Shown in pieces: positions 27,579 through 53,267 of a DNA stretch of 64,000 bases. Under the pieces are notes generated by a model. It saw nothing but the letters and a program-made list of their open reading frames with translations. It was not told the DNA's origin and made no database searches. The translations under genes and the position numbers were made by a program. Positions within the stretch are counted from its first letter, which is position 1. Each line of letters starts with the position of its first letter. The stretch is from Balneola sp. (GTDB lineage: Bacteria > Bacteroidota > Rhodothermia > Balneolales > Balneolaceae): NCBI GenBank assembly GCA_002696035.1, contig NZQV01000026.1, positions 372,001 to 436,000 of the forward strand. Direction: 5' to 3'.

Positions 27579-30062
27579 ATGAACAAAACTATTACAAGAA
27601 AATACAGAAGGACTAAACTCGGCTTTACGCTGAGTGTAATGTTGTTGATGATAACGGCCTTTGCACAAAATGCTTTTGCACAGGGGCAGGTGGTCGTAAA
27701 TACAAACGGAAGCTTTGAGAATTCTGATATAACCGTATCCGGAGACACTGCAAGTGTGGAAGGCTGGCAATTCTTTGTACTCGATGATGGAGCTGCCGGC
27801 ACTTATGCCATTGTGGATAGCGTCACTAAAGATGGCAACAGAGCCTTGGCAATTTCTGCAACAAGCACAGGCCCTGAAGATTACAGTCTGGGCGCTGTAA
27901 ACGAAGGTATTCCGGTAACGCCGGGTGTAAACTACACCGTAACTTTATGGGCGAAGGCCTCTGAAGCCGGAGCTACAGCAAATTTCACCGTTCACAACCC
28001 GAATAATAACTACACCGAACTCGGAAGGGTGGGAAATGCAAATGTGTCATTAACAACCGAATGGCAGGAATATAGCTTTACCTTTACCGGACCTGCAGGC
28101 ACCGACACCGTTCGTGCACCAATGCATTTTAGCTTTGAAGCCAACGTAGGGAAAACGGTATATCTTGACAGTGTTCGGGTTACACATCCCAAAATACTTG
28201 GAGAACCTTTAATTGTAGAAGCTGAATCAGGTGATGTGGGTTCTGAATGGGCTACCGAAACCGATGAAGGAGACGGAAGCACCTATGTGACCATAACTTC
28301 AGATACCGAAGCTACAAGCGGAACAGCAAACAGCCCGGGAGAAAACCGCACGATCTCCTACGAACTAACTTTCCCTGATACAGGTAGTTATGACTTGTTC
28401 GCAAGAGTATATGTAGGCTCCGCAACTTTTGATGATGACAGCTGGTTTATTCCGGTCGGCTTTGGGGAAAAGCACCCCGACAGCACGTCGCACTGGCAGG
28501 TAAGCAACGGATTGGCATCAGCTGGTTTTAATATGCCCAGTGATGTGGTACGCAATGCCGGTGGTGTTGGAGAGGGAACATGGAAATGGGTGAACCTTTC
28601 CAAAAATGGATATCAAGGTGCACCTGCTGATACGTTCATGGTCAATGATCCAGATAGTTTGACACGTATTTTTGAAGTTGGAGCACGAGAAAATGGTTTC
28701 AGAATTGACAAGATCGCGTTCGGACTTTCCAGCTATTACTATACGGTTGAAAACCTGAACAATGGCGAGGCAGGATCTGCAGAACCCCCTGTTCCTCCGG
28801 TAGAACCTCAGGACCCGATAGCTCAGGGCAAGGCTAAATGGTTAGGTAATATTTACAGTTCAAATCAGATAGAAAACTTTACCAGCTACTGGAATCAGGT
28901 AACGGCAGAAAATGCTGGTAAATGGGGCAGTGTGGAAGGCACGCGAGATGAAATGAACTGGGGCCCATTAGATGAGGCTTACAACCTTGCCAAGGATAAT
29001 GGGTTTCCATACCGTTTTCACATTCTGATCTGGGGAGGACAGCAGCCGGGTTGGATCAATGATCTGAGCACCGAAGAGCAGCTTGAAGAGATCGAAGAAT
29101 GGATGGACCTCGTTGCAGAACGATATCCGGATATGGAATACGTGGAAGTAGTAAATGAAGGCTCCAACGGACATCAGCTGCCTGACGGCCAAAGTGGCGA
29201 CGCCAACTATATTGAAGCGTTAGGTGGAACCGGTGATACCGGCCACGACTGGATCATTACTGCGTTTGAAATGGCCCGCGAACGATTTCCGAATGCCAAG
29301 CTGATGATCAATGATTACAACATTGTGAGTAGCAATACCTGGGGCACCCCAAACGCACGGAATTACAAGAACATTATTGATGATCTTGTGGAGCGTGATC
29401 TAATTGATGTGATCGGCGTTCAGGCCCATGCATTTTCAACAGTTGGATCACAATCTCAAATCAGAGCAGTACTTGATCTGTTGGCTGAAACCGGATTACC
29501 TATTCAGGCTACAGAGATGGACATTGACGGAGATCCCAATGCTGTAACCACTGCAACTTCTGATGCGGAACAGCTTGGTAACATCCAGCGCATTTTCCCA
29601 GTGTTCTGGGAGCACCCTGCGGTTGAAGGTGTTACGATGTGGGGATGGCGTCCGGGGTTATGGCGACAAGACCAGGATGCATTTCTGGTACGCAGTAGCG
29701 GCGAAGAACGTCCGGCCCTGGAGTGGTTACGTGCTTATGTGGATACGGCAAGTGTGGAATTCAGTGTCTCAAATGAAGAACTGATAACTAATACGCCGGA
29801 GCAATTTGAGCTCAGCCACAACTATCCAAACCCGTTCAACCCGACTACACAAATAAGTTACAACCTGCCAAGAAATGCAGAAGTTAGCTTGCGCGTGTAT
29901 GATATTACCGGTCGGTTGATCCAGACGCTGGTAAATACCCGCCAGTCAGCAGGTTCACACACGGTGAGCTTCAATGCATCTAACCTGTCATCCGGAGTAT
30001 ATTTCTACAGAATGGAAGCAGGAACATTTACTGACGTGAAACAAATGATGTTAATTAAATAG
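27579..30062 (+). CDS. T9SS-secreted GH10 endo-xylanase with two N-terminal binding modules
   Basis: The 827-residue protein has a signal peptide (1-35), a CBM4/9-like module (about 36-204) and a second beta-sandwich of CBM6/35-like character (about 208-395). The GH10 barrel (about 411-730) follows and a T9SS sorting domain (about 745-827, [10 protein letters not shown] and ending MMLIK) closes the protein. The acid/base is Glu527 (VVNEGSNG) and the nucleophile Glu646 (QATEMDIDG). It should cleave beta-1,4-xylan at the cell surface or in the medium. Its GH10 and tail are nearly duplicated in the gene at 33460. A strong terminator follows at 30108. Confidence 0.9.
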   Translation: MNKTITRKYRRTKLGFTLSVMLLMITAFAQNAFAQGQVVVNTNGSFENSDITVSGDTASVEGWQFFVLDDGAAGTYAIVDSVTKDGNRALAISATSTGPEDYSLGAVNEGIPVTPGVNYTVTLWAKASEAGATANFTVHNPNNNYTELGRVGNANVSLTTEWQEYSFTFTGPAGTDTVRAPMHFSFEANVGKTVYLDSVRVTHPKILGEPLIVEAESGDVGSEWATETDEGDGSTYVTITSDTEATSGTANSPGENRTISYELTFPDTGSYDLFARVYVGSATFDDDSWFIPVGFGEKHPDSTSHWQVSNGLASAGFNMPSDVVRNAGGVGEGTWKWVNLSKNGYQGAPADTFMVNDPDSLTRIFEVGARENGFRIDKIAFGLSSYYYTVENLNNGEAGSAEPPVPPVEPQDPIAQGKAKWLGNIYSSNQIENFTSYWNQVTAENAGKWGSVEGTRDEMNWGPLDEAYNLAKDNGFPYRFHILIWGGQQPGWINDLSTEEQLEEIEEWMDLVAERYPDMEYVEVVNEGSNGHQLPDGQSGDANYIEALGGTGDTGHDWIITAFEMARERFPNAKLMINDYNIVSSNTWGTPNARNYKNIIDDLVERDLIDVIGVQAHAFSTVGSQSQIRAVLDLLAETGLPIQATEMDIDGDPNAVTTATSDAEQLGNIQRIFPVFWEHPAVEGVTMWGWRPGLWRQDQDAFLVRSSGEERPALEWLRAYVDTASVEFSVSNEELITNTPEQFELSHNYPNPFNPTTQISYNLPRNAEVSLRVYDITGRLIQTLVNTRQSAGSHTVSFNASNLSSGVYFYRMEAGTFTDVKQMMLIK
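28809..30062 (+). repeat. Paralogous segment 1: GH10 catalytic plus sorting domain
   Basis: This stretch and 35068-36309 are highly similar at the DNA level as well as in protein, for example the shared TGGTTAGGTAATATTTACAG early in the barrel. The upstream modules of the two genes are not similar, so the similarity has a sharp boundary at the start of the GH10 domain. Confidence 0.7.
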
Positions 30063-47601: not shown

Positions 47602-47627
47602 GAAGTCTATCCTTCTATGTAATTTCA

Positions 47628-47662
47628 AAAGCCTTGGTTATCTTAACCAAGGCTTTTTTTTA
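47628..47662 (+). terminator. Rho-independent terminator after the beta-helix-like gene
   Basis: AAAGCCTTGGTTA pairs with TAACCAAGGCTTT around a short loop and is followed by a T-run. The next gene starts only about 30 bases later, so read-through or a very compact promoter is needed. Confidence 0.9.
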
Positions 47663-47693: not shown

Positions 47694-49421
47694 ATGAAAA
47701 TTATAGGAACACATATTGGTCTAATCCTTGTATTATTTCTACTCAGTAGTTGCCAAAAAGAAAAGGCAGAATATGCGGCGTTGATCGATGGGCAATATGA
47801 AATTTCGAAGCAGAAATTAACAGACTATCACCAGGATCTCTATTTTCAACAAAGATTTCCTGATTCAGAATATAATGGATACGATGAAGCTCTTGATGAG
47901 CTCATTATTCGAAAGCTCAAGCAGATCGAGTTTGTAAAAAACGACCTTCATAGAGATCAAGAGTTGATGTCTAATATCCAAAGGGTTATAAATGAAGAAC
48001 TTTTGGTGCTCTATTTTGATGAAAAATACCTGGGCCAATATATAAATGAAGAGGTCATACAGGATTACTACCAGGGTTTAGGCAGGGAAGTGACTTATCA
48101 ACAAATTGTACTGAGAAAAGACAATGCCGAAAATTTAGAAAGTTTAAAACAAAAAGCCTCAGAGATACAGCAAAAAGCTCAGAACACCGATGATTTTGCT
48201 AGTCTTGTAAGTCAATATTCTGAAGACCGGCGAACAGCTCAACGAGATGGCAGAATGCCCGTTATGACTTGGGACATGGGAACTGCTTCACCTCAAAATC
48301 AGGTGATCTTTAGAATGAGGGAAGGCAGCGTACAGGTTTTGGAATCTTCCAGCCGGATCTTGATAGTGAAAGTGAACAATGTGGAGGAAGTGGATTTACG
48401 TCCCTTAGAAGAGATTAAACCAGAAATAAAAAAGGAATTAAGAGAAGTATATTCTCCGAGGGCTTTCTCAGATTATGACAGGGACAAAGAAAACCTTTTG
48501 GATGAAAGTGAATACGAATGGAATACAGATGGTTTAAACAAGCTGGTTGAATGGGCCCGGATAGAAGGATTCTATCGGCAGGCTAAGTATAAGGAGATCA
48601 TTGAAGAGCATATTGCTGAGGGAAATAATTTTGAAATTCTGAAATATCAGAACGGTACTGTTGACCTTCAAAAGTATCTGTATCTACTCAATAATATTTT
48701 GCTCGTAGAGACATCAGCAAATCCTAAGCCAGGAGATTTTAAAAAGTTTATTGATGAAGCATTACGTACTGAATTAATAGTTGAGAATGCCAGGGAAATG
48801 GGCTTGGATGAAGACATCCTGTCGTTAAGTACCGATAGCCCGGTTATATTAGCTGAATTTGTACGACTCTATGATCAGGAATTTATTTTTTCCAGAATTC
48901 CAGAGGCTAATGAAGAGAACTATCAAAAGTTTTATGAGCTTACCAAAGATTCATTATTCTATCAACCAGATAAAGTGAATCTTAGGGTTAAGGTTTTTGA
49001 TACTGAAGAAGCCGCTCAGGAAGCGATGTCTGAAATAAATAGCGGAAAAGCATTTGAAGATGCATTCCATGCATGGTCTGTGAAAACATATATCATCAAC
49101 AAAAAAGGTGAAATCGAATCGTATCTAAGTCCGGAACCGAATTATTTAGGGGATGCAGGATTTAAACTTTCTGAAGGGGAAACCGCCGGTCCCGTAAGTT
49201 TTACTGAAGAGGGTGAAACCAAATTCGCTGTGATAAAGGCAAACAATGTTGAGAAAGAAAAAACACTTACATTGGACGAAGTTCACCCACCCCGTTTAAG
49301 ACGGATGTTTCGCAATTACTATTTCAACATATTTAGTAGTGAGGTTGCTGAGAAACTGAGAAATAATCATACTATTGTAATAAATGAACAAGCTTTAACA
49401 GAATTATCAGCTTCTAAGTAA
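47694..49421 (+). CDS. Parvulin-type peptidyl-prolyl isomerase lipoprotein with two rotamase-like domains
   Basis: The 575-residue protein begins with a lipoprotein signal (lipobox LSSC, Cys20). A SurA-like helical N-terminal region is followed by a parvulin-like domain (about 118-243), recognisable by the pattern DFASLVSQYSEDRRTA..DGRMP. A helical linker and a second, more degenerate rotamase-like domain (about 427-545, YLGDAGFKLSEGETAGPV) follow. It would act as a periplasmic foldase/chaperone. It shares an apparent operon with the membrane protein that starts 5 bases after its stop. What it folds is unknown. Location directly after a T9SS/TonB pair suggests export or assembly of those proteins. 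Confidence 0.8.
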   Translation: MKIIGTHIGLILVLFLLSSCQKEKAEYAALIDGQYEISKQKLTDYHQDLYFQQRFPDSEYNGYDEALDELIIRKLKQIEFVKNDLHRDQELMSNIQRVINEELLVLYFDEKYLGQYINEEVIQDYYQGLGREVTYQQIVLRKDNAENLESLKQKASEIQQKAQNTDDFASLVSQYSEDRRTAQRDGRMPVMTWDMGTASPQNQVIFRMREGSVQVLESSSRILIVKVNNVEEVDLRPLEEIKPEIKKELREVYSPRAFSDYDRDKENLLDESEYEWNTDGLNKLVEWARIEGFYRQAKYKEIIEEHIAEGNNFEILKYQNGTVDLQKYLYLLNNILLVETSANPKPGDFKKFIDEALRTELIVENAREMGLDEDILSLSTDSPVILAEFVRLYDQEFIFSRIPEANEENYQKFYELTKDSLFYQPDKVNLRVKVFDTEEAAQEAMSEINSGKAFEDAFHAWSVKTYIINKKGEIESYLSPEPNYLGDAGFKLSEGETAGPVSFTEEGETKFAVIKANNVEKEKTLTLDEVHPPRLRRMFRNYYFNIFSSEVAEKLRNNHTIVINEQALTELSASK

Positions 49422-49426
49422 TAGTA

Positions 49427-51751
49427 ATGAAGAAGTTAAATCAGGTTCTGCTGGTATTATTTTTCATATCAGTATCAGTTCTTAATTTTGAAATTCTTGC
49501 AACCCGGATATCTTCCGTAATTTTTGTAAATAGTTACGGATTTATCATCCTCTCTCTAGCAATAATGGGCCTCGCTGCCGGGGCCATTTATGATTATTAC
49601 ACAGGTAAAAAACACTCCAGAGAGAAGGACAACCATAAACTGTTCGCTCCTGTATTATACCATGCGTTGAGCTGCATTTTATTTGTATTGGTTGTTACAC
49701 AATTAGAAATGATCACCACTCCTTTAGTGTTTTTTGTGTTCCTCTTCCTGCCATTTTTTTTCGCAGGTATATTCTATTCCCAGGTTTTCACGATCTATTC
49801 GGCAGATAGCTTTAAGATCTACGCTGCCGACTTAACCGGAGCTGCTGCAGGCTCATTATTGCCCTTGGTCATTTTACCAAGTACAGGCCCAATTAATGGT
49901 ATCTTGGCTGCAAGTATTCTAATACTTGCAGGGGTTGGGTTTTTGATGCTTATCCCAAGATCAAGAAAATTAGCAGGATCAACTATTGTTATTGGGTTAT
50001 TGGTAGCCATATCCACAGCTATATTTATGCCTATAGATTTTATGGGTAAGATTCCGATAGGGGAATTCGAGGAAAAGGACTTTCACCATGTGTATGATGA
50101 CCCAACAATTCGGTCTGAAATAGTAGATTCCAGATGGAGTGTGTTTGGCCGATCGGATTTGGTAGAGCACAGCAATCAAGATAGAGTTAAGCATATTTTT
50201 ATTGATGGCGCCGCTGGTTCCCAAATGTATAAATTTGGGGGTAGTGTTGGAAACCTGGACCCTGTGTTAAGCAACATGCTCCTCCAGTTCACAAATTCTG
50301 TGCCTTTCCTTTTGTTAGAACCAAGCCAAAAAAATACAATGCTGGTAATTGGCCCGGGGGGAGGAAGGGAAGTCCTGACCGGTTTGATCTCTGGAATCGG
50401 TTCAATAACCGGAGTAGAAATAAACAGAGACTTTGTTGAGATCGTGGAAGACCAGGCAGATTACAATGGAGGGCTGTATACAAGGTTTCCGAATATTAAC
50501 ATTCAGGTAAAAGAAGGGCGACAGTACGTTAAAGAGACCAATATATCGTACGACTTGATAGTAATGGCCCTGCCTTCAACCCAACAGTTACAAAGCATAG
50601 AAAGCTATGCCTTGAGCGAAAACTATCTGCTTACAGTTGAAGCCCTCTCTGATTATCTGGATATACTTACACCAGAGGGACAGTTGATCTTTACTGTTCA
50701 CAATGACCTGGAAATGCAAAAGCTTATAACAACAACCATAAAAGCTTTTGAAGAAAGAGGGATAGACAGGCAACAAGTGTTAGATCACTTTATAGCTGTT
50801 GAACAAAGGTATTCGCCCACCCTTGTGATAAGCAAAAAGCCTTATTCCAGAGAAAAAATAAATCAGTATTTAAATTTTGCACAAACTTTACCCAGCCAGC
50901 TTCCGGCTATAACATATGTGCCATTTAATTGGGGAAATTTACCTCAGACACAGGGTAACAGATTATTGACCAATTTAAGAGACCAAAGCCTGCAATTGAA
51001 TACGATCATTGAAAACCAAGCTTTTAATATCGCTCCTGTTTTTGATGATAGCCCATATTTCTATAATCTTGAAAAAGGAATAACAGAGAATTTCTCGTTC
51101 TTACTAAAAATTGTTTTCGCTTTCAATTTATTGATCATTTTGGTTCCCTATCTGGTTGCAAGAAAGAGAGAAACTAAACAGAACCTGAAGAAACTAAGAA
51201 AGCTGCTTCTATTCTTTATCTGTTTAGGGGCTGGTTTTATCTTTCTGGAATTGGCGCTGTTTCAAAAATTGATTCTGTATCTTGGCTCTCCCACAATCTC
51301 CCTGTCCATATTATTATGTTCTATACTGGTTGGGATGGGATTAGGTAGCATAAGCGGGAATTTCTACGAAATAAAGGATGCGTATAAGAGGCTGTTATTT
51401 TTCTCAATTTTAGTTTTGGTGAGTGGAGCAGTGGCGGTTACGGTATATCCCATTATTCTGGAAAGCCTTTTAGGGCAAGACAGGGTTATAAGGGCTATTA
51501 TTACCTTTCTGCTAATCTTGCCCCTTGGCTTTGTTCTGGGTGTGCCTTTTCCTACCTCTATTCGTATTCTGGAAAGCCATCATCTCGATGAATATATCCC
51601 CTGGATGTATGGGGTAAACGGGGCAATGACCATTCTGGGCTCGGTGTTGACCATAGTTGTCTCCATGCTTTATGGATTTACTGTCGCTTTTATTGCCGGC
51701 CTTTCTTTTTATCTGGTAATTGTTGTTGTTCTACTACTTGATAAGGAATAA
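49427..51751 (+). CDS. Polytopic membrane protein with a degenerate spermidine-synthase-like domain
   Basis: The 774-residue protein has about six N-terminal transmembrane helices (8-200) and a Rossmann domain (about 210-530). About seven C-terminal helices (545-774) follow. The Rossmann domain has a nucleotide-cofactor loop (VIGPGGGRE, about 307-315) and an acidic strand end (TGVEIN). The segment where spermidine synthases carry their catalytic aspartates reads YDLIVMALPSTQ (about 375-386), so normal aminopropyl transfer is doubtful. A following ALSENYLLTVEAL motif marks a widespread uncharacterised membrane-fused family. The gene forms a two-gene unit with the parvulin lipoprotein. The function is unknown. 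Confidence 0.75.
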   Translation: MKKLNQVLLVLFFISVSVLNFEILATRISSVIFVNSYGFIILSLAIMGLAAGAIYDYYTGKKHSREKDNHKLFAPVLYHALSCILFVLVVTQLEMITTPLVFFVFLFLPFFFAGIFYSQVFTIYSADSFKIYAADLTGAAAGSLLPLVILPSTGPINGILAASILILAGVGFLMLIPRSRKLAGSTIVIGLLVAISTAIFMPIDFMGKIPIGEFEEKDFHHVYDDPTIRSEIVDSRWSVFGRSDLVEHSNQDRVKHIFIDGAAGSQMYKFGGSVGNLDPVLSNMLLQFTNSVPFLLLEPSQKNTMLVIGPGGGREVLTGLISGIGSITGVEINRDFVEIVEDQADYNGGLYTRFPNINIQVKEGRQYVKETNISYDLIVMALPSTQQLQSIESYALSENYLLTVEALSDYLDILTPEGQLIFTVHNDLEMQKLITTTIKAFEERGIDRQQVLDHFIAVEQRYSPTLVISKKPYSREKINQYLNFAQTLPSQLPAITYVPFNWGNLPQTQGNRLLTNLRDQSLQLNTIIENQAFNIAPVFDDSPYFYNLEKGITENFSFLLKIVFAFNLLIILVPYLVARKRETKQNLKKLRKLLLFFICLGAGFIFLELALFQKLILYLGSPTISLSILLCSILVGMGLGSISGNFYEIKDAYKRLLFFSILVLVSGAVAVTVYPIILESLLGQDRVIRAIITFLLILPLGFVLGVPFPTSIRILESHHLDEYIPWMYGVNGAMTILGSVLTIVVSMLYGFTVAFIAGLSFYLVIVVVLLLDKE

Positions 51752-51882
51752 TCCCGGCAGCAAATTCAAATATAGTCGGCAGGGTTTATTTATAAAGGTT
51801 GAGATGAAGCTTGTCTTCTGCAGATATAGATAGATGGCGGAATTAATTAAAGAATACAATCTCAAAATATTCAGGTAAAATA

Positions 51883-51911
51883 AAAAAGCCCTCCGCAAAG
51901 AGGGCTTTTTT
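51883..51911. terminator. Bidirectional terminator between membrane protein gene and xylA
   Basis: AAAAAGCCCTC and GAGGGCTTTTTT form a stem around CGCAAA, flanked by A and T runs that work on both strands. It lies between convergent genes. Confidence 0.9.
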
Positions 51912-51938: not shown

Positions 51939-53267
51939 TCAAATATTATTGTTGATGATGTTCTCAAACAATTCTTGTTTTCCGCTTCGCATTTTGGGCT
52001 CGCCATTCTTGAGGGCAATTTCCCGAAGGTCTTCTAGACTTAGTTTTCCTTCTTCAAACGCTTTACCATCTCCACTATCAAACGAAGAATAACGCTCGGT
52101 ACGAAGTTTCTTGTAGTCAGAATTGTTAAGCACTTTGTCGGCCACGATCAGGCTTCGTGCAAAAACATCCATGGCACCAATGTGTGCGTGGAAAATATCA
52201 TCCAGGTCGGTAGAGTTTCTGCGACGCTTGGCATCAAAATTAACTCCTCCGGTTTTGAAACCACCGGCTTCCAGGATGACCAGAAGAGCTTCTACTGTTT
52301 CAAAGATATTGTTAGGAAACTGGTCAGTATCCCAGCCGTTTTGGTAATCACCACGGTTGGCGTCGATGCTTCCGAGAAGATCATTATCGGCAGCTACCTG
52401 TAGTTCGTGCTGGAACGTATGACTTGCCAGGGTAGCGTGATTCACTTCAATGTTTAGCTTGAAATCTTTTTCCAGACCGTATTTCTTGAGGAAAGCCATG
52501 CAAGTAGCGGCATCAAAATCGTATTGATGTTTGGTTGGTTCCATTGGCTTAGGCTCAATCAAGAAGGTGCCTTCAAAGCCATTTTTGCGGCCATAATCTC
52601 GGGCAGCTTCAAGGAAGCGAGCCAGATGATCAACCTCACGGCCCATCTGTGTGTTAAGGAGACTCATGTATCCTTCACGTCCGCCCCAGAAAACATAGTT
52701 TTGTCCACCAAGTTCGATGGTTGCATCAATAGCGGCTTTAACTTGAGTAGAGGCATAAGCAAGTACATCAAAGTCAGGGTTCGTTGCAGCGCCATTCATA
52801 TAGCGTGGGTGCCCGAACAGGTTGGCAGTTCCCCAAAGCAATTTAACACCTGAAGCTTCTTGCTTCTGTTTGGCGTAATCGGTGATGGTTTGAAGACGTT
52901 TCTCGCTTTCCTGAATAGAATCAGCTAGGTCAACAACATCAACGTCATGAAAACAGTAAAAAGGAACACCTAATTTAGTGAAAAACTCAAAGGCTGCATC
53001 CATCTTGGTTTTTGCCGCAGCAATTGGGTCGCTATCAGTTCCCCATGGATAAGAATGTGTTGGTGCACCAAAGGGATCCTGTCCGCTATCGCAGAAGGTA
53101 TGCCAGTAGGCTACGGCAAACCTGAAGTGTTCCTTCATGGTCTTGCCTGCTACTTTTTTATTCTCATCATAATATTTAAAGGCAAACGGGTTGTCTGATT
53201 CAGGTCCTTCGTATTCAATTTTGTCAATATTCTTGAAATACTCGCGATCTCCAATTAGTGGTTTCAT
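51939..53267 (-). CDS. xylA: Xylose isomerase
   Basis: Converts D-xylose to D-xylulose. The 442-residue class II enzyme has catalytic His107 and Asp110 (CFHDVD, His101/Asp104 in E. coli). Metal-ligand regions are Glu238/Lys240 ([15 protein letters not shown]) and Glu274/His277 ([12 protein letters not shown]). The signature [14 protein letters not shown] is also present. It follows xylB by 32 bases on the same strand, forming the end of the minus-strand xylose segment. It is cytoplasmic with no signal peptide, and its length is normal for the family. Confidence 0.97.

Follow-up and report, generated by a model that had tools for sequence, protein, structure and literature searches.

What is a membrane protein with the fold of spermidine synthase (SpeE) doing when it is encoded 5 bases after a lipoprotein with two parvulin domains? 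The question is raised by a stretch of Balneola sp. DNA of 64,000 nucleotides (GenBank assembly GCA_002696035.1, contig NZQV01000026.1, positions 372,001 to 436,000 of the forward strand; the whole stretch is referred to here as the window). An initial annotation, made from the letters of the window, regarded these two open reading frames (ORFs) as a self-contained two-gene system with a role in the modification or export of surface proteins. Both ORFs lie where that annotation had placed them and carry the domains that it had described, but the pair does not stand alone. With high confidence, it is the second half of a conserved four-gene cassette, in which genes for a TonB-dependent receptor and for a surface protein sorted by the type IX secretion system (T9SS) are followed by those for the double-parvulin lipoprotein and for the membrane protein, which joins the SpeE-fold domain to helices with the fold of the major facilitator superfamily (MFS).

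The order of the cassette recurs in records from several bacterial phyla. A scan of named genomes with the single membrane-protein sequence gave no match; a scan with an alignment of the family recovered, by itself, ten loci. Two of these (L046 and L054) were assigned to genomes that were already in our sample (G021 and G003, respectively) and add no genomes. The records include a Rhodothermia metagenome-assembled genome (MAG), Balneolaceae ANBcel3 and Gracilimonas mengyeensis and, going by their titles, further MAGs of KSB1, Ignavibacteriae, Melioribacter, Bacteroidota/Bacteroidetes (two), Neomarinimicrobiota and Calditrichaeota; most records are MAGs, and a mis-binned contig is possible for any single one. 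Profiles of the four protein families, built from the window and loci of the alignment scan, were run on 22 loci that had been picked for holding the parvulin or the membrane protein. The surface-protein gene lies immediately upstream of all 17 full-length parvulin genes with a readable upstream side, and the receptor gene lies immediately upstream of the surface-protein gene at all 14 parvulin places with enough contig. Left out of the first count are a parvulin at a contig end (L097) and a parvulin remnant (L030) that lacks a preceding surface-protein gene. The 17/17 adjacency rules out that the parvulin and surface-protein genes are neighbours by chance, and ties the parvulin primarily to the receptor/surface-protein pair. 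The complete four-gene order is present in L046, L049, L050, L052, L054 and L055, and L048 holds three of the genes, with the start of the contig falling inside the set.

We also examined co-occurrence of the parvulin and the membrane protein in an even draw of 394 genomes of the phylum, at profile thresholds of E 1e-30 and E 1e-80, respectively; only the best two or three candidates per genome were scored in both searches, and second copies may be missed. The membrane-protein profile matched in 17 genomes, six of them above 800 bits and the next at 590 bits, and the parvulin profile matched in nine. All six genomes with a close membrane protein (above 800 bits, a line set afterwards at this clear score gap) contain the parvulin, compared with 3 of the other 388 (Fisher P = 1.7e-11, which is optimistic because the line was set afterwards and because the genomes are not independent, three of the six belonging to one family and two to another). 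Those three of the 394 that have the parvulin without a close membrane protein are G028, G064 and G217; a relative with 27% identity is encoded elsewhere in G028. When G035 and eight genomes found by the alignment scan are included, 14 of the 15 genomes that encode the close membrane protein also encode the parvulin, and the linkage extends far beyond the source genome.

The membrane-protein gene lies within the cassette in 12 of the 15 carriers (counting G070, in which contig breaks fall there) and directly follows the parvulin gene in seven (G000, which is the source genome of the window, G003, G021, G423, G424, G426 and G428), with an overlap of 4 bases between the two genes in two carriers. 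An SGNH-type gene separates them in G103, G225 and G422, accompanied in G422 by a short membrane-protein fragment, and genes of glycoside hydrolase (GH) families 9 and 10 separate them in G427. The membrane-protein gene of G070 is ahead of the receptor gene; its contig ends past the surface-protein gene, and the parvulin gene is found at the end of another contig. The membrane-protein gene of G035 follows a 148-aa parvulin remnant, and an intact set lies at a distance of about 20 kb. This remnant (L030:6427-6873) is the C-terminal part of a parvulin and stands before an intact membrane-protein gene. G422 also has a weak second parvulin match (146 bits).

In the AlphaFold2 model, seven helices, the SpeE-fold domain and seven further helices make up the membrane protein, where about six and seven helices had initially been proposed. 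The domain has the SpeE fold by sequence as well as in the model. The whole protein matches Thermus thermophilus SpeE (1uir; Z = 17.2, rmsd 4.6, 242 aligned residues), as does the domain alone (Z = 15.8, rmsd 3.9 over 221). The helix bundle matches MFS proteins with Z scores that clearly exceed the noise level given for the search tool: SV2A (9okg; Z = 29.4, 3.0 A over 343), FLVCR1 (8ubx; Z = 23.2) and AmpG (9j9z; Z = 19.1). No Pfam model matches the protein better than E 0.84, with none of the Pfam MFS models matching at E 1, and its NCBIfam matches are weak and to speE-type models (PRK03612, 26.6 bits compared with a cut-off of 472; TIGR00417, 16.8 compared with 249.55). The speE models also match weakly in all 11 close relatives; NF037959, the model for fused MFS/spermidine synthase proteins, matches one of the 11 (E 0.0024) and does not match the window protein at E 1. 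NF037959 and PRK03612 share with the window protein, by their names and the stretches matched, the combination of membrane helices and a SpeE domain, but the matches do not reach the cut-offs and the catalytic segment is unlike that of SpeE.

Residues of the domain were compared in a close set of 11 members and in a wider set of 14 members that are 21-60% identical to the window protein. The GPGGG motif (residues 309-313), the segment MALPSTQ (380-386) and the ALSENY-TVEA motif (ALSENYLLTVEA, 395-406) are present as first described. P383, S384, T385, Q387, Q389, E398, N399, T403, E405, H454, D540 and D541 are invariant in the close set, as is R365; R365, E398, T403, H454, D540, P543 and F545 are identical in all members of the wider set. 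E331 and E363, which stand opposite acidic residues of SpeE that we take to be cofactor contacts, are kept throughout the close set, and in 11/14 and 5/14 of the wider set, respectively. Residue 312, the acidic position of GxG(D/E)G, is glycine in 11/11 close members, and PST(E/Q/A)Q stands in 11/11 where 2e5w has DSTDP; the aspartates of the DSTDP-type segment are catalytic in SpeE. Given this conservation, the site is specialised, not decayed, and the domain is altered; the word degenerate, as initially used, does not describe it.

Could the protein nevertheless make polyamines, as an ordinary aminopropyltransferase with a membrane part attached? The SpeE fold and the weak speE matches in every close relative are consistent with this, as is the lack of a speE above the TIGR00417 cut-off in its own genome, which is 97% complete. 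We reject it as highly improbable, in line with the initial annotation: the acidic residue for decarboxylated S-adenosylmethionine (SAM) is absent and the catalytic segment replaced in 11/11, the window protein is far from reaching the curated cut-offs, and the domain is predicted to lie on the periplasmic side. No result here indicates polyamine work.

Placement of the SpeE-fold domain in the periplasm, held between the halves of the MFS-like helix bundle, is strongly predicted, as three partly independent lines (helix count, positive charges and cysteine scarcity) concur. Seven helices precede the domain in the model, and, if an MFS bundle gains two helices that flank a central insert, the insert comes to lie outside, in agreement with a periplasmic domain. 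Lysine plus arginine counts are 16-23 on the N-terminal side compared with 5-10 on the domain side in 11/11 close rows, and 14-32 compared with 4-8 in 14/14 wider rows (22 distinct sequences, of which three recur; helix ends of the window model were applied to all rows, and the domain is represented only by the 20 membrane-proximal residues at each end). Cysteines are scarcer in the domain than in the membrane parts, both in the wider set (1/4959 compared with 41/6361, P = 1.3e-9) and in the close set (9/3852 compared with 52/4735, P = 8e-7). In the window, six presumed cytoplasmic proteins have 2 to 10 cysteines each; there is no cysteine in the receptor or in two GH10 enzymes, one each in a GH67 enzyme and the parvulin, and two in the surface protein.

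The MFS fold, with its high Z scores, also invites the interpretation that the protein is mainly a permease for periplasmic xylo-oligosaccharides, with the SpeE-fold domain as a non-catalytic substrate-binding lid. A TonB receptor requires an inner-membrane partner, the gene is set among xylan genes and the residues for aminopropyl transfer are absent. We regard such a permease as possible but unlikely, given that the locus already holds two sodium:solute symporters and an MFS_2 sugar transporter, that none of the 11 close members deviates at GxGGG, E331, E363, R365 or a dozen other polar positions, and that some wider relatives occur elsewhere, after T9SS cargo genes (L083 and L084) or beside a metal-type P-type ATPase (L031). 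The L031 relative, a paralogue, is followed by the ATPase gene, which encodes HMA and YHS domains. A similar paralogue, 35% identical, is found on contig C13 of the source genome (L027:12851-14779) and reaches the contig end; genes near it resemble, by look alone, what we take to be metal efflux functions. The paralogue of G008 (L033:5743-8189) is in two pieces with an internal stop codon.

The lipoprotein has a lipobox-like LSSC, and its domains match PrsA and SurA structures in the Protein Data Bank (PDB). Rotamase_2 (E 1.8e-17, best at residues 407-531), Rotamase (E 3.5e-11, best at 143-227) and Rotamase_3 all score above the Pfam cut-offs. In parvulins, a pair of active-site histidines is catalytic. 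When the first domain is aligned with SurA, the first histidine is replaced by glutamine in 9/9 members and the second is histidine in only 2/9; in the second domain, judged by eye, neither histidine was found, with the L048 protein having one a residue off. The family shares with SurA and PrsA the parvulin domains and the envelope location, but differs in lacking the histidine pair and in being tied to one gene set. We presume that the lipoprotein is a periplasmic chaperone.

The setting points to xylan. Family scans show that the window contains a large xylan locus with GH10, GH67, GH43, GH3, GH31, GH95 and GH2 enzymes, esterases and sugar transporters, and across records the cassette often adjoins GH10 or GH9 genes. 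Homologues of the T9SS-sorted GH10 xylanase of the window (BLAST, over most of the length) adjoin the cassette in L046, L053, L094, L095, L096 and L105, and the membrane protein in L051. A GH9 gene lies directly 3' of the membrane-protein gene at five loci (L047:12494, L048:8173, L055:9978, L074:2832 and L030:9548).

All nine members of the surface-protein family carry the Por_Secre_tail sorting domain, and the source genome encodes a T9SS sortase (1077.7 bits). A sequence comparison with the PDB gave no relative of the surface protein, and Pfam gave no SusD match for it, no dedicated SusD-model search having been made across the loci; the suspicion that it forms a beta-helix came from its appearance alone. 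A second full-length surface protein, 51.6% identical, is encoded on contig C21 of the source genome (L102:6397-8313), and the 16 kb examined around it hold no receptor, parvulin or membrane protein. SusC/SusD loci of Bacteroidota combine a TonB receptor, a surface partner and glycoside hydrolases, as does the window. The window differs in that its receptor scores 349.4 bits with TIGR01782 compared with 60.6 with SusC/RagA, that its surface partner is T9SS-sorted and that parvulin and MFS/SpeE genes are added.

We tentatively favour, at somewhat less than even confidence, the interpretation that the pair forms the maturation half of a xylan-uptake cassette and consists of a chaperone and an extracytoplasmic SAM-type, probably methyl-transferring, enzyme. 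SAM use, methyl transfer, the client and the import function are all inferred. The receptor and surface protein would jointly bind and import xylo-oligosaccharides, in the manner of SusC/SusD; the lipoprotein would escort one or both of them through the periplasm, without proline isomerisation; and the membrane enzyme, using SAM or a close adenosyl donor exported by its own MFS part, would act on an exported partner, with methylation of the T9SS-sorted protein or of its glycan as the likeliest modification. The initially proposed connection with surface proteins agrees with the identity of the partners, a TonB receptor and a protein sorted by the T9SS; the neighbourhoods indicate xylan uptake and not T9SS export at large. 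The slot taken elsewhere by the membrane protein is filled, in the second cassette of G427, by a gene of the radical SAM/SPASM type that follows the parvulin gene (L105:5573-6628); a further modifying enzyme at this place would fit a modification role.

The closest characterised analogue that we found is the fungal N-terminal histidine methyltransferase NHMT (AN4663), to which the proposed action is likened. NHMT combines seven membrane helices with a SpeE-annotated domain, is set apart from spermidine synthases by loss of the D/E of GxG(D/E)G (the decarboxylated-SAM residue), and acts in the export pathway on plant-polysaccharide enzymes, the secreted lytic polysaccharide monooxygenases (LPMOs) (PMC10349129). 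The likeness lies in the seven helices joined to a SpeE-type domain without that D/E. NHMT has one helix bundle where the window protein has two flanking its domain, and the replaced residue is isoleucine in NHMT (PMC10349129) but glycine in the window family. The LPMO_10 family (PF03067) was matched in none of the 15 carrier genomes; NHMT-type substrates from this family are thus lacking, and we reject an LPMO as the substrate.

Several observations weigh against the maturation interpretation, the missing LPMO_10 match among them. The supply of SAM outside the cytoplasm is its weakest link: the periplasm is not known to us to contain SAM, and that the MFS part transports it is conjecture. A more specific version, in which the MFS half exports SAM to the fused SpeE-fold domain, T9SS-sorted or outer-membrane proteins are modified before they reach the surface and a dedicated non-isomerase parvulin presents the client, is distinctly unlikely. 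In the model, residues 211-270, 333-351 and 384-399 have pLDDT below 50, the last being the active-site loop, and the pocket is unreadable; a domain-only model was no better for this loop. The solved structures nearest to the domain are aminopropyltransferases, with METTL13 and other methyltransferases ranking lower in the lists for both the whole protein and the domain, although this ranking does not decide between the activities. Four of the 11 close members have one to three cysteines in the domain. As T9SS cargo is frequent, some T9SS neighbourhoods arise by chance. Five parvulin places (L094, L095, L096, L103 and L105) have the cassette with no adjoining close membrane-protein gene, so the set does not require this protein. 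Finally, the parvulin and the membrane protein of G429 are on different contigs, and the profile search gave no parvulin match in G425.

These last cases, together with the separate places in G035 and the three sampled genomes that have only the parvulin, would also suit a membrane protein that is simply a neighbour in xylan loci and has no functional tie to the parvulin. Parvulin distances track surface-protein distances (r = 0.74, 11 genomes) no less than membrane-protein distances (r = 0.69, 12 genomes, with no control for species relatedness), and the value for membrane and surface protein is only 0.28 (11 genomes). Set against the direct adjacency, the overlapping genes, the shared cassette and the joint presence counted above, however, a mere neighbour is improbable.

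A different target has also been considered: the enzyme might O-methylate a glycan, whether lipid-linked, at the surface or in the form of xylan fragments that have been imported, and might do so jointly with an SGNH/TPR protein. A membrane-anchored SGNH/GDSL protein is encoded inside the cassette of G103, G225 and G422, and right after that of G424, but its gene was not seen in the window or in the other mapped cassettes, and we consider a glycan target of this kind rather improbable. The SGNH/GDSL proteins of these four genomes have about 650 aa, and three of the four have TPR repeats.

Distant relatives of the membrane protein provide a further link to T9SS. In L083 and L084, the gene directly follows four tandem genes that overlap by 4 bases, and all four encode sorting domains (by family scan in L084, by BLAST only in L083); beyond them in L084, on the other strand, are gldA/F/G-like genes that score below the cut-offs. 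Among relatives with about 25% identity, a T9SS-sorted gene lies within about 2.5 kb in 4 of 13 mapped (L036, L038, L040 and L043). This counts little because such genes are common in these genomes: G000 has 54 T9SS-profile matches, those listed being mostly to the sorting domain alone.

What had been a vague 'spermidine synthase-like membrane protein' can now be framed as a testable proposal, that of a family with an apparently extracytoplasmic enzyme domain and a gene-order tie to surface proteins for the uptake of plant polysaccharides. If the domain uses SAM, the route by which a charged cytoplasmic cofactor reaches the outside becomes a direct question. The cassette is a candidate marker for xylan uptake in T9SS bacteria with a receptor that is not SusC-like, and one carrier, Gracilimonas mengyeensis DSM 21985, is in culture. 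Our literature search, which covered open-licence papers, found no bacterial periplasmic SAM or methyltransferase of such a kind and no report that joins spermidine synthase, polysaccharide utilization and TonB-dependent receptors.

Table 1 Coordinates of the features discussed, in the window unless a locus is named
Feature	Position	Strand	Basis or remark
T9SS-sorted GH10 xylanase	27579..30062	+	Family scan; BLAST homologues at other loci
TonB-dependent receptor of the cassette, 1008 aa	42652..45678	+	Family scans (TIGR01782, CarbopepD_reg_2)
T9SS-sorted surface protein, 626 aa	45721..47601	+	Family scans; C-terminal sorting domain, remainder without Pfam or PDB match
Terminator-like hairpin between surface-protein and parvulin genes	47627..47657	+	14-pair stem and T tract; consensus match only
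Double-parvulin lipoprotein, 575 aa	47694..49421	+	Pfam; lipobox-like LSSC
MFS/spermidine-synthase-fold protein, 774 aa	49427..51751	+	ORF including stop codon
N-terminal seven membrane helices, residues 1-202	49427..50032	+	AlphaFold2 model, MFS fold
Spermidine-synthase-fold domain, residues 203-552, predicted periplasmic	50033..51082	+	GPGGG, VEIN and EGR kept; PST(Q/E/A)Q in place of the catalytic Asp segment
C-terminal seven membrane helices, residues 553-774, and stop codon	51083..51751	+	Model; weak match to membrane part of PRK03612
Terminator-like hairpin between membrane-protein gene and convergent gene 51939-53267	51882..51911	-	13-pair stem; consensus match only
Distant relatives with tandem genes	L083:7387-16999, L084:65-10255		
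SGNH/GDSL proteins	L073:6619-8586, L074:7695-9665, L048:3806-5737, L050:12410-14347		

The two hairpins that bracket the pair have the longest stems of the region, in which the number of terminator-like hairpins (7) shows no excess over shuffled sequences (mean 6.7). Beyond the second hairpin, the genes at 51939, 53300 and 55125 presumably encode a xylose isomerase, a xylulokinase and a LacI-type regulator, which they resemble by sequence look alone.

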